Assembly (NCBI GenBank): GCA_014859315.1
Contig: JACUUK010000004.1
Span: 1 to 44,811, forward strand
DNA: 44,811 nt
Direction: 5' to 3'
Source of the DNA: Candidatus Aminicenantota bacterium
GTDB taxonomy: Bacteria; Acidobacteriota; Aminicenantia; Aminicenantales; Aminicenantaceae
Shown here: one piece after another, positions 23,789 through 43,511 of the stretch
Layout: each line of letters begins with the position of its first letter
Numbering within the stretch: position 1 is the first letter of the stretch
Notes under the pieces: generated by a model
Database searches by the model: none
What the model saw: the letters and a program-made list of their open reading frames with translations, nothing else
Told to the model about the DNA's origin: nothing
Program-made: the position numbers and the translations under genes

Positions 23789-24988
23789 TTATTCCAATAC
23801 ATCTGTGACTGATCCAGCTCCGACTGTCCGTCCTCCTTCTCGAATCGCAAAACGCAGCCCCTTCTCCATAGCAACATCTGATATTAAATTTATCTCTAAA
23901 TTCACATTGTCACCAGGCATCACCATCTCTACCCCGCTCGGTAACTTCACCGTCCCAGTCACATCTGTTGTCCTAAAATAAAACTGAGGCCTGTACCCAG
24001 TGAAAAACGGCTTGTGCCTGCCGCCTTCTTCCTTCTTCAATGCATATATCTCCGCCTTAAACTTGTGATGTGGCGTTATTGACCCAGGCTTCGCTAATAC
24101 CATTCCACGCTCTACCTCATCCTTGTCCGTCCCTCTTAACAACACTCCTATGTTGTCTCCTGCCATCCCTTCATCCAATATCTTGCGAAACATCTCTACC
24201 CCTGTCACTACCCGCTTGCGCGTCTCTCCAAACCCTACTATCTCTATCTCCTCTCCTGTCTTAACCCGTCCTCTCTCTACTCGCCCTGTCACCACTGTCC
24301 CTCGACCACTTATAGAAAATATGTCCTCTATCGGCAACAAAAATGGCTGGTCTACTAACCTCTCCGGCTCTGGTATGTCCTTGTCAACCGCATCCATTAA
24401 CTCCGTTATCGGCTTGTTAATATCTGCCTCAGGATCCCCATCCGTCTCCAACGACTTTAATGCGCTCCCTCGTATCACTGGTATCTTGTCCCCAGGAAAT
24501 TCATACTTCGTCAATAACTCCCTTACCTCTAACTCCACTAAATCCAATATCTCAGGATCATCCACTAAATCTACCTTGTTTATAAATACTACTATCGCAG
24601 GTACATTAACCTGCCGCGCTAACAATATGTGCTCCCTCGTCTGTGGCATTGGCCCATCATCAGCCGCTACTACCAATATCGCCCCGTCCATCTGTGCTGC
24701 CCCAGTTATCATGTTCTTTATATAATCAGCATGCCCAGGACAATCTATGTGTGCATAATGCCTGTTGGCTGTCTCATACTCTATGTGCGCTATCTGTATC
24801 GTTAATCCTCTCTCCTTCTCCTCAGGTGCGTTGTCTATCTTGTCAAACTCAATATATTCTACTGTCCCCATCTTCTTGTTCAATACCTTCGTAATGGCTG
24901 ATGTCAACGTCGTCTTACCATGGTCCACATGCCCTATCGTCCCTATGTTTAAATGCGGCTTCGTACGCTCAAACTTTTTCTTCGCCAT
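23789..24988 (-). CDS. tuf: Elongation factor Tu, copy in the str cluster
   Basis: A 399-residue EF-Tu, the GTPase that delivers aminoacyl-tRNA to the ribosome. The P-loop GHVDHGKT spans 19-26, switch I Thr63 follows Arg60-Gly61, DCPGH is at 82-86 and NKVD at 137-140. I start it at ATG 24988 because GGAGG lies seven bases upstream; an in-frame extension of eight codons has no such site. The DNA from 23788 to 25001 appears identical to 40078-41291, the second tuf. Codon use differs from neighbours: mostly ATA for Ile and AAG for Lys. It is followed by rpsJ. Confidence 0.97.
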
Positions 24989-40078: not shown

Positions 40079-41278
40079 TTATTCCAATACATCTGTGACT
40101 GATCCAGCTCCGACTGTCCGTCCTCCTTCTCGAATCGCAAAACGCAGCCCCTTCTCCATAGCAACATCTGATATTAAATTTATCTCTAAATTCACATTGT
40201 CACCAGGCATCACCATCTCTACCCCGCTCGGTAACTTCACCGTCCCAGTCACATCTGTTGTCCTAAAATAAAACTGAGGCCTGTACCCAGTGAAAAACGG
40301 CTTGTGCCTGCCGCCTTCTTCCTTCTTCAATGCATATATCTCCGCCTTAAACTTGTGATGTGGCGTTATTGACCCAGGCTTCGCTAATACCATTCCACGC
40401 TCTACCTCATCCTTGTCCGTCCCTCTTAACAACACTCCTATGTTGTCTCCTGCCATCCCTTCATCCAATATCTTGCGAAACATCTCTACCCCTGTCACTA
40501 CCCGCTTGCGCGTCTCTCCAAACCCTACTATCTCTATCTCCTCTCCTGTCTTAACCCGTCCTCTCTCTACTCGCCCTGTCACCACTGTCCCTCGACCACT
40601 TATAGAAAATATGTCCTCTATCGGCAACAAAAATGGCTGGTCTACTAACCTCTCCGGCTCTGGTATGTCCTTGTCAACCGCATCCATTAACTCCGTTATC
40701 GGCTTGTTAATATCTGCCTCAGGATCCCCATCCGTCTCCAACGACTTTAATGCGCTCCCTCGTATCACTGGTATCTTGTCCCCAGGAAATTCATACTTCG
40801 TCAATAACTCCCTTACCTCTAACTCCACTAAATCCAATATCTCAGGATCATCCACTAAATCTACCTTGTTTATAAATACTACTATCGCAGGTACATTAAC
40901 CTGCCGCGCTAACAATATGTGCTCCCTCGTCTGTGGCATTGGCCCATCATCAGCCGCTACTACCAATATCGCCCCGTCCATCTGTGCTGCCCCAGTTATC
41001 ATGTTCTTTATATAATCAGCATGCCCAGGACAATCTATGTGTGCATAATGCCTGTTGGCTGTCTCATACTCTATGTGCGCTATCTGTATCGTTAATCCTC
41101 TCTCCTTCTCCTCAGGTGCGTTGTCTATCTTGTCAAACTCAATATATTCTACTGTCCCCATCTTCTTGTTCAATACCTTCGTAATGGCTGATGTCAACGT
41201 CGTCTTACCATGGTCCACATGCCCTATCGTCCCTATGTTTAAATGCGGCTTCGTACGCTCAAACTTTTTCTTCGCCAT
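40079..41278 (-). CDS. tuf: Elongation factor Tu, copy downstream of the tRNA cluster
   Basis: A 399-residue EF-Tu with the same protein sequence as the copy at 23789-24988. The identical DNA block extends from one base past the stop codon to the ribosome binding site (40078-41291) and ends abruptly on both sides, the pattern expected from gene conversion between duplicates. The gene follows four tRNA genes, matching the E. coli thrU-tyrU-glyT-thrT-tufB arrangement, so it is probably processed from a tRNA-mRNA precursor. Codon use (mostly ATA for Ile and AAG for Lys) again differs from neighbouring genes. Confidence 0.97.
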
Positions 41279-41314
41279 TCCTTTACCTCCTCCTTTCTTT
41301 TCCTTTCATAATTA

Positions 41315-41387
41315 AGCCCACGACCAGATTTGAACTGGTGACCCCGTCCTTACCAAGGACGTGCTCTACCAACTGAGCTACGTGGGC
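41315..41387 (-). tRNA. trnT: tRNA-Thr (GGT anticodon)
   Basis: Acceptor GCCCACG pairs with CGTGGGC, anticodon loop TTGGTAA reads GGT, and the T loop is TTCAAAT. The discriminator is U and no CCA is encoded. It is the last tRNA before tuf. Confidence 0.94.
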
Positions 41388-41407
41388 AAACGTACCTCAA
41401 AATATAA

Positions 41408-41480
41408 AGCGGGAAACGGGACTCGAACCCGCGACCAACGGCTTGGAAGGCCGTAGCTCTACCAACTGAGCTATTCCCGC
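41408..41480 (-). tRNA. trnG: tRNA-Gly (TCC anticodon)
   Basis: Acceptor GCGGGAA pairs with TTCCCGC, anticodon loop CTTCCAA reads TCC, and the T loop is TTCGAGT. The discriminator is U and no CCA is encoded. Confidence 0.94.
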
Positions 41481-41485
41481 TTAAA

Positions 41486-41568
41486 TGGGCAGGGAAGGAT
41501 TCGAACCTCCGAAGCGTTCCCGCAGCGGGTTTACAGCCCGCCCCATTTAACCACTTTGGTACCTGCCC
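41486..41568 (-). tRNA. trnY: tRNA-Tyr (GTA anticodon), long variable arm
   Basis: Acceptor GGGCAGG pairs with CCTGCCC, anticodon loop CTGTAAA reads GTA, and a long variable arm marks it as class II. The discriminator is A. No CCA is encoded. It is separated from tRNA-Gly by five bases. Confidence 0.93.
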
Positions 41569-41642
41569 ATATATCAAGAAACATTGCTCGTCAAATATAA
41601 TCACTAAGCTTCCTTGCCTTTGGCACTAATCTTCCTTTTAAA

Positions 41643-41715
41643 AGCCAGCGAGAGGATTCGAACCCCCGACCCGCTGATTACAAATCAGCTGCTCTACCAA
41701 CTGAGCTACGCTGGC
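41643..41715 (-). tRNA. trnT: tRNA-Thr (TGT anticodon)
   Basis: Acceptor GCCAGCG pairs with CGCTGGC, anticodon loop TTTGTAA reads TGT, and the T loop is TTCGAAT. No CCA is encoded. It is the first tRNA in transcription order, 153 bases after the promoter at 41869-41897. Confidence 0.94.
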
Positions 41716-41868
41716 ATAAACTCATGATTAAAAACTCTCGTACCTTAGTTATTTTAAATATTTTTGGGAATAAAGAAGAAGAGAGTAGTTCTATATGCCC
41801 TACTTATTTTTTTTATCTACTTCAACAACTCTCTTTTTTTAAAAAAAAATTTTGTTTATACATCAGAA

Positions 41869-41897
41869 ATACTATATCAATTTATTTTGCTTGTCAA
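41869..41897 (-). promoter_or_regulatory. Promoter of the tRNA-tuf-rif run
   Basis: On the minus strand TTGACA (41892-41897) and TAGTAT (41869-41874) are 17 bases apart, 153 bases before tRNA-Thr(TGT). The leader between them is A/T-rich, with a GAGAG/CTCTC and GTAG/CTAC hairpin. The promoter lies inside the last codons of the sigma-factor fragment. Confidence 0.65.
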
Positions 41898-42120
41898 TAG
41901 TATCGAAAAAATATTTTTTTAAATCATCCACATCAAGATGATTCCTTGTTAATCTGAAATTCAGTTGACATGTTCTTTCCTTGCAACAAAGGGCTAATTC
42001 CGCGAAGGCTTTAATATCTCCTTTATCTCCTTTCTTAGCTTGGATAACCAACTGGTCATCAGAAAAACCTTCCATGTTTATATCGCTCTTCATTAGACAT
42101 TTATTATAATACAAATACAA
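41872..42120 (-). pseudogene. Truncated ECF sigma-factor fragment (region 2)
   Basis: An open stretch of 82 codons. Its middle part, SDDQLVIQAKKGD, then IKAFAELA, then CQLNFRLTRNHLDVDDL, follows the start of ECF sigma-70 family factors (region 2.1-2.2). After DDL, where QETF would be expected, it reads KKYFFDTIDKQ and stops, so the promoter-binding region 4 is missing. An in-frame repeat of GGAGATAAA gives an extra GDK. The remaining 41716-41871 and 42121-42209 hold promoters and A/T-rich DNA. No strong ribosome binding site precedes any of its ATGs. A short peptide of other function cannot be excluded. Confidence 0.5.
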
Positions 42121-42151
42121 AATCTTTAGAATCTTTTGTGAAATGATTGAA

Positions 42152-42180
42152 TTGACACAATAAATCGCACTTGATATTAT
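42152..42180 (+). promoter_or_regulatory. Promoter of the purine operon
   Basis: TTGACA at 42152-42157 and TATTAT at 42175-42180 with a 17-base spacer, about 30 bases before the purB ATG. The leader is too short for a purine riboswitch, and I see no clear PurR operator. Confidence 0.75.
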
Positions 42181-42209
42181 TTAAATTTAAAACAAAAAGG
42201 TATTATCTC

Positions 42210-43511
42210 ATGATTAATAGATACACACGGCCACAAATGGGAGCCATCTGGACAGACCAAAACCGGTACCAGAAATGGCTCGATGTAGAAATAGCTGTTT
42301 GTGAAGCTTGGAATAAGTTAGGAAAAATCCCTTCTCCAGCTTTACACCAGATAAAAGAAAATGCAACTTTTTCAGTTGAACGAATTGAAGAGATTGAAAA
42401 AGTTGTTAAACATGATGTCATTGCCTTTCTCACTTCTATCGCAGAAAATGTCGGAGACGCCTCTCGCTATATCCATCTTGGATTGACTTCATATGATGTC
42501 GTTGACACAGCTTTTTCACTTCTCATAAAGGAATCCCTCATAGCTATTCAAAAAGATTTAGCATCTTTAAAGCAAACTATAAAGAAGGAAGCCATTCGTC
42601 ATAAGAATACCGTAATGATAGGCCGGACGCATGGGATTCACGCTGAACCTATCACCTTTGGAGTAAAACTCCTTGTTTGGTACGAGGAAATCAAAAGGAG
42701 TCTCCAACGTATCTCCAATGCAATCACCACTATTAGTTATGGTCGCATTTCAGGTGCAGTCGGTACTTATATTCACCTTGACCCTGAAATAGAGCTTTGT
42801 GCTTTGGAAAAATTGGGTTTAAAGCCCGCTCCTGTCTCCACACAAGTTCTTCAACGCGACAGGCATGCTGAAGTCCTTGCAGTATTAGCTATTCTTAATT
42901 CCTCTCTTGACAAATTTGCTGTTGAAATCCGGCACCTTCAAAGAACAGAAGTCCTCGAACTGGAAGAGCCATTTACTCCTGGACAAAAAGGGTCTTCTGC
43001 CATGCCTCACAAAAAAAATCCTGTCCGCACAGAAAGGATTTCAGGCCTTGCCCGTATAGTCAGGTCAAATCTTCAAGTGGCTTTAGAAAATATTCCACTT
43101 TGGCATGAAAGAGACATCTCTCATTCTTCCACAGAGCGAATCATTTTCCCAGATTCTTTTATAATAACAGATTTCCTCCTTGCAGAAATAACGGATATCC
43201 TGAAAAACTGGAATGTTTACCCGGAAAGGATGAAAAAAAACATAGAGCTCACAAAAGGTCTCGTGTTTTCACAGAGAATTCTCCTTGCGCTTACAGAAAA
43301 AAACCTAACCCGTGAACAAGCTTATAACCTCGTCCAAAAAAATAGTCTCAAAGCCTGGAAAGAACAATGCGATTTCCAATTTCTGGTTCTTTCTGACCCA
43401 GAGATTGGAAAGATATTATCTCCAGAAGAAATAAAGGCGTGCTTTTCTCTTGAGCCATATTTAGAGAAAATCGATTATATTTTTGAGAAGGTTTTGTCAG
43501 ATGAAAGTTAG
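42210..43511 (+). CDS. purB: Adenylosuccinate lyase
   Basis: A 433-residue lyase that removes fumarate from SAICAR and from adenylosuccinate in purine synthesis. The fumarase/lyase signature GQKGSSAMPHKKNP carries the catalytic serine. GRTHGIHAEP holds a catalytic histidine, and LTSYDVVDT is the substrate loop. The start at 42210 (MINRYTRPQMG) is the family start and has AAAAAGG about nine bases upstream; an upstream in-frame ATG would overlap the -10 element. The C-terminus overlaps purS by 11 bases. Confidence 0.95.
   Translation: MINRYTRPQMGAIWTDQNRYQKWLDVEIAVCEAWNKLGKIPSPALHQIKENATFSVERIEEIEKVVKHDVIAFLTSIAENVGDASRYIHLGLTSYDVVDTAFSLLIKESLIAIQKDLASLKQTIKKEAIRHKNTVMIGRTHGIHAEPITFGVKLLVWYEEIKRSLQRISNAITTISYGRISGAVGTYIHLDPEIELCALEKLGLKPAPVSTQVLQRDRHAEVLAVLAILNSSLDKFAVEIRHLQRTEVLELEEPFTPGQKGSSAMPHKKNPVRTERISGLARIVRSNLQVALENIPLWHERDISHSSTERIIFPDSFIITDFLLAEITDILKNWNVYPERMKKNIELTKGLVFSQRILLALTEKNLTREQAYNLVQKNSLKAWKEQCDFQFLVLSDPEIGKILSPEEIKACFSLEPYLEKIDYIFEKVLSDES

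Follow-up and report, generated by a model that had tools for sequence, protein, structure and literature searches.

A probable 5' remnant of an ECF sigma factor gene beside the conserved tRNA-tuf promoter of a Candidatus Aminicenantota bacterium

Introduction

Does an open reading frame (ORF) that ends inside a promoter tell where that promoter came from? The question is raised by an 82-codon ORF lying between purB and a cluster of four tRNA genes followed by tuf, in a stretch of 44,811 nucleotides (hereafter, the window) of contig JACUUK010000004.1 from a Candidatus Aminicenantota bacterium (GCA_014859315.1). The initial annotation saw in this ORF either a diverged sigma-70 region 2 fragment, left by a decayed ECF sigma factor gene that had supplied promoter DNA to the tRNA-tuf operon, or an unrelated peptide. 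We consider, with a probability of about 0.93, that this ORF is a pseudogene, namely what survives of the 5' end of a gene for an ECF sigma factor, a stress-response regulator, and that the tRNA-tuf promoter did not arise from it.

The comparison covers 60 genomes, designated by G-numbers: that of the window itself (G000) and 59 relatives. DNA upstream of purB was taken from 52 of them (G000 and 51 relatives), leaving out six genomes with no purB match and two (G033 and G048) with a partial purB only. The features of the locus are collected in Table 1.

Table 1. Features of the purB/tRNA-tuf region; positions are those of the window.
Feature	Positions	Strand	Description
tuf (EF-Tu)	40079..41278	-	downstream of the tRNAs
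tRNA-Thr(ggt)	41315..41387	-	tRNA prediction, Rfam
tRNA-Gly(tcc)	41407..41481	-	tRNA prediction, Rfam
tRNA-Tyr(gta)	41485..41569	-	tRNA prediction, Rfam
tRNA-Thr(tgt)	41643..41715	-	first gene of the operon; tRNA prediction, Rfam
Conserved tRNA-tuf promoter	41869..41897	-	TTGACA-17-TAGTAT; -35 TTGACA 41897-41892, -10 TAGTAT 41874-41869
ORF	41872..42120	-	82 codons, TTG start; probable sigma stub fused to promoter DNA
Putative zone of the deletion junction	41898..41921	-	between the last sigma homology and the conserved promoter
Sigma-derived part	41921..42093	-	N-terminus to DxDDL motif (MKSDINMEGFSDDQLV...DVDDL); profile and DNA alignment to G003
Tandem duplication	42016..42033	-	9 bp, in-frame, AAAGGAGAT twice; extra unit absent from G003
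Remains of upstream element	42093..42127	-	AAAGA ... GTCTAA, 24 nt between (by eye); 15 in most intact loci
purB	42210..43511	+	divergent neighbour, synteny anchor

Sigma Ancestry of the ORF

General protein family libraries barely recognize the ORF. No Pfam family matched it at E<=10, it was not among the 13 matches of a Sigma70_r2 search of the whole genome, and the NCBIfam hit, SigW NF007223, reached 15.4 bits (E=0.012; cut-off 209). Such low scores are what a peptide resembling ECF sigma factors by chance would give, and they are the evidence in favour of the ORF being unrelated to them. A profile built from 23 syntenic ECF proteins of relatives, with G000 left out, nonetheless gave the ORF 39.6 bits, or E=4.5e-11 among 2001 sequences, far beyond the highest of 2000 residue shuffles (8.8), over model positions 4-60 of 199. 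The ORF itself matched at E<=1 in 46 of the 60 genomes, its own included, with G003 as the top relative (E=1.2e-12), and the top matches in relatives sit at the same place beside purB. Conversely, the intact G003 sigma factor is 53% identical to this locus of G000, versus 23-32% for nine other loci. Profile score and synteny thus speak together against the unrelated peptide offered initially as an option, whose probability we regard as practically negligible. The position of the ORF and its sigma resemblance both stood; the outcome named beforehand as fatal to a sigma origin, no significant sigma match, did not occur with the lineage profile, weak as the general libraries were.

The ORF carries the N-terminal third of an ECF sigma factor, reaching into region 2. 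Two ATG codons inside it, at 42093 and 42075, are likely the old start codons of the sigma gene. The homology ends near 41921, after the DxDDL motif, which we take to be the start of region 2.2, and promoter-side DNA, not sigma sequence, encodes the tail (IDKQNKLI among its residues) and the stop. As to what a functional ECF sigma factor would contain, PF04542 (Sigma-70 region 2) scores 60.8 bits on the intact G003 orthologue and does not find the ORF, and region 4 is lacking, the frame ending at 41872 and the profile match stopping at model position 60 of 199. What is expected of a remnant was found: homology beyond chance, and the same place and orientation as the intact copies (divergent from purB and upstream of tRNA-Thr(tgt)). 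ECF sigma factors need regions 2.3-2.4 and 4 for their activity, and the predicted product of the stub would be inactive in this role.

An intact copy elsewhere in the genome, which the initial annotation proposed to look for, was not found in G000, a draft genome 91.56% complete; none of the 13 region-2 matches resembles this orthologue, and given that completeness an intact copy may sit on a missing contig. With an N-terminal profile the stub scored 50.8 bits, above all 12 paralogues scored (of the 13 in G000), the best of which reached 43.9; with the full-length profile, nine of these 12 outscore the stub, as expected for so short a sequence. The top G000 sigma factor by the latter profile (C96) was considered as a moved copy and rejected: it has its own orthologue elsewhere in G003 (67%), and also in five other genomes searched (57-87%).

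The Intact Operon in Related Genomes

At the same spot beside purB, a syntenic ECF sigma gene is present in 24 of the 52 genomes, as a decayed sigma gene in G000 would lead one to expect; 17 genomes have none, three (G000, G012 and G027) have a stub, and in eight the contig ends. Among the 24, the sigma gene is complete in 21, cut by the contig end in two (G002, G050) and interrupted by an in-frame stop in one (G035). Genes for an ECF sigma factor, a zf-HC2 anti-sigma factor and a Metal_resist-like protein occur together in 21 of these 24 loci, the remaining three (G002, G038, G050) being cut by a contig end. The gene order in these relatives, all of the same order (Candidatus Aminicenantes), is purB, ECF sigma, anti-sigma, Metal_resist-like gene, tRNAs and tuf. 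No description of this purB-linked operon was found in the titles and abstract openings listed by searches of an open-licence library.

The proteins of the intact G003 operon (C26) give Sigma70_r2/r4 and zf-HC2 matches. The third protein is small and looks secreted. Against Metal_resist (PF13801), the family to which CnrX of Cupriavidus belongs, it scores 15.3-28.9 bits, below the cut-off of 29.2 in all five proteins tried. The class of genomes without a sigma gene is mixed: in five of them (G014, G044, G049, G055, G058) other sequence occupies a spacer longer than 1.6 kb, and in G039 the third gene is kept and the sigma gene is missing, any sigma trace there being weak at best (8.5 bits, E=0.0068). 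The in-frame stop of G035 (L109) lies in region 2 and divides the sigma gene into frames of 91 and 116 codons, in this order; it reflects either incipient loss or an error in the assembly.

A common element also precedes the sigma gene in most loci. The pattern AAG[GA][AT]-N15-GTCTAA was found before 19 of 25 loci (the 24 with a sigma gene plus the G012 stub), against a mean of 0.014 and a maximum of 1 in mononucleotide shuffles, the pattern having been drawn from these same 25 loci. The GTCTAA part is present in 25 of 25 loci and in G000, where the full spaced pattern is unmatched (Table 1). The conserved arrangement before intact genes reads AAGGATT-N-GTCTAA, e.g., at L102 (G003) and L091 (G023). 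We suggest that this element is likely an autoregulatory ECF promoter candidate of Aminicenantes. A whole-genome search for AAAGRAWT-N13-GTCTAA in nine genomes gave eight sites, four of them at the purB locus, and eight in the backward control, so that it is uninformative on a wider regulon.

The tRNA-tuf Promoter Predates the Stub

The ORF does end over a promoter-like -35/-10 site, as initially annotated: its stop codon, TAG (41874-41872), is part of the -10 element TAGTAT. This TTGACA-17-TAGTAT site is the top-scoring minus-strand promoter-like site of positions 41000-43000. A consensus promoter scan gave six sites versus 5.0 expected in shuffles and thus proves nothing by itself; it is conservation in relatives that supports the promoter. 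An exact TTGACA was seen, at 112-197 bp on the upstream side of tRNA-Thr(tgt), in every one of the 35 genomes whose fetched stretch included this tRNA; in four of them (G026, G051, G054, G057) the automatic scorer preferred another site, with the conserved TTGACA still present. Most relatives have a 17-nt spacer and a -10 of the TA-n-n-n-T type.

That the -35 and -10 fall inside the open frame is the observation in favour of the proposal that coding DNA of a decayed sigma gene was recruited to serve as the tRNA-tuf promoter. Nonetheless, the promoter occurs alike in genomes with a whole, a reduced or a missing sigma operon, and where intact the operon ends before it. In G003, whose sigma operon is whole, TTGACA stands 183 bp from tRNA-Thr(tgt), versus 182 bp in G000, and AATTNATATAGNATT is common to both promoter regions. 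The claim that the decayed gene supplied promoter DNA does not survive this comparison, and we deem such co-option extremely unlikely.

Several observations concern the tRNA-tuf operon itself. An Rfam search over 41200-42300 returned the four tRNAs and nothing else, and a plasmid search with 41300-42300 returned 427 records, all of the 20 matches listed lying within the tRNA stretch. In several relatives, the leader between promoter and tRNA-Thr(tgt) (41716-41868, minus strand, in G000) contains a recurring CCTTTCTCTT..TTACTCCC stretch. The search for a conserved RNA structure in the leader was negative overall: RNAalifold predicted 0 pairs for 14 aligned leaders out of the 35, the G000 leader folds no better than its shuffles (z=+1.15), and the mean z over the 35 leaders was -0.49, with values below -2 in four single genomes (G013, G026, G027, G055). 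The window has two tuf genes, 23792-24988 and 40082-41278, identical at 1197 of 1197 bases, with flanks that diverge past a short common stretch; this identity suggests recent gene conversion.

How the Operon Was Probably Lost

Between purB and tRNA-Thr(tgt) there are 494 bp in G000 and about 2.0-2.8 kb in whole-operon loci with a located tRNA, and the DxDDL motif of relatives is separated from the tRNA promoter by roughly 1.5-1.9 kb. The ancestral gap between purB and the tRNAs would have held the ECF sigma gene, the zf-HC2 anti-sigma gene and the small Metal_resist-like gene, the operon being taken as ancestral because it is spread through the order. A deletion of about 1.5-1.9 kb then probably took away both other genes and the sigma gene from region 2.2 on, ending just upstream of the tRNA-tuf promoter and bringing the sigma stub up to a pre-existing promoter, which was presumably kept because the tRNA-tuf operon needs it. 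The sigma frame now reads by chance through the -35 to the TAG within the -10.

The other two genes are gone from this locus. In G000, the interval from purB to tuf gave no anti-sigma match with E<=0.01, and a third-gene query had no match in G000 or in G001, a second genome of the genus. Among a control set of 26 genomes, this query matched nine and gave none in 17: matches were at E<=2.3e-36 in G003, G005, G006, G023, G025 and G029, a C-terminal piece was found in G012, and those in G027 and G018 were weak (E=0.003). The mean identity of the stub to nine relatives is 0.51, versus 0.60 among these relatives, the corresponding values for purB being 0.74 and 0.78. The loss of the sigma operon reads as fairly recent, and the whole is ordinary gene loss and pseudogene decay.

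Parallel reductions are found in two other genomes. In G012 (L106), the frame of a sigma stub continues without a break into the anti-sigma gene, and of the third gene just a C-terminal piece is left. The sigma stub of G027 (L123) is shorter, and a C-terminal piece of the third gene comes after it. In a tree built on the first 190 purB residues, the G000, G012 and G027 stubs fall on three branches; many forks of this tree are weak (22 of its 49 inner branches are starred), and we take from it only that the three stubs are separate.

Is the Stub Retained as a Peptide?

The stub could instead be kept as a small functional protein, e.g., a sigma2-only decoy binding RNA polymerase or an anti-sigma factor. 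The frame is open, 10 of the 10 best-conserved residues of the stretch are kept, the third codon positions differ most from G003 (35, 38 and 23 of 48 match at positions 1, 2 and 3, respectively), and an N-terminal stub is also kept in two other genomes. The same pattern, however, equally fits recent loss. The open frame is weak evidence for function, since the simulated chance of finding no stop was 0.35-0.85 at 0.15-0.02 neutral substitutions per site. Furthermore, the cognate anti-sigma factor and the third gene are missing from the locus, the spacing of the upstream element is altered, no stub was detected in the sister genome G008, and the end points differ among the three stubs. Selection on the stub is not directly measurable, as there is no second genome of the genus with the locus: G001 has neither a purB match nor a match to the stub. 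Retention as a functional protein appears very unlikely to us. Equally speculative, and to be given as little credit, is a broader proposal in which the purB-tRNA-tuf gap would be a hotspot of repeated ECF operon loss, the stub being kept in some lineages as a sigma2-derived peptide touching RNA polymerase or an anti-sigma factor. A pseudogene stub left by deletion stays our preferred reading.

Comparison With Known Systems and Significance

Three systems can be set beside this locus. One is the ECF sigma/zf-HC2 operon of the relatives (e.g., G003), with which the stub has in common its N-terminal sequence, place, orientation and the remains of the upstream element; it differs in lacking region 2.3-2.4, region 4, the anti-sigma factor and the third gene, and in the spacing of that element. 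The thrU-tyrU-glyT-thrT-tufB operon of enterobacteria consists of tRNA-Thr-Tyr-Gly-Thr followed by tufB (PMC6134099); the same tRNA types stand in the same order before tuf here, likewise with a promoter region in front. The difference lies in the neighbour, here a decayed sigma operon, which is a trait of the neighbourhood and not of the tRNA operon. CnrH/CnrY/CnrX of Cupriavidus are described as an ECF sigma factor, an anti-sigma factor and a periplasmic metal sensor (PMC4598750). The operon of the relatives is alike in pairing an ECF sigma and anti-sigma factor with a small, apparently secreted protein, and differs from it in that its anti-sigma factor has zf-HC2 and its Metal_resist scores fall just below the Pfam cut-off.

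The locus opens no new mechanism. It offers a small, clean case of an ECF sigma operon eroding while the neighbours on both sides are conserved: among related genomes the operon is seen whole, partly deleted, reduced to a stub, or gone and the site empty. It also carries a caution: a promoter overlapped by an ORF did not necessarily originate from that gene.
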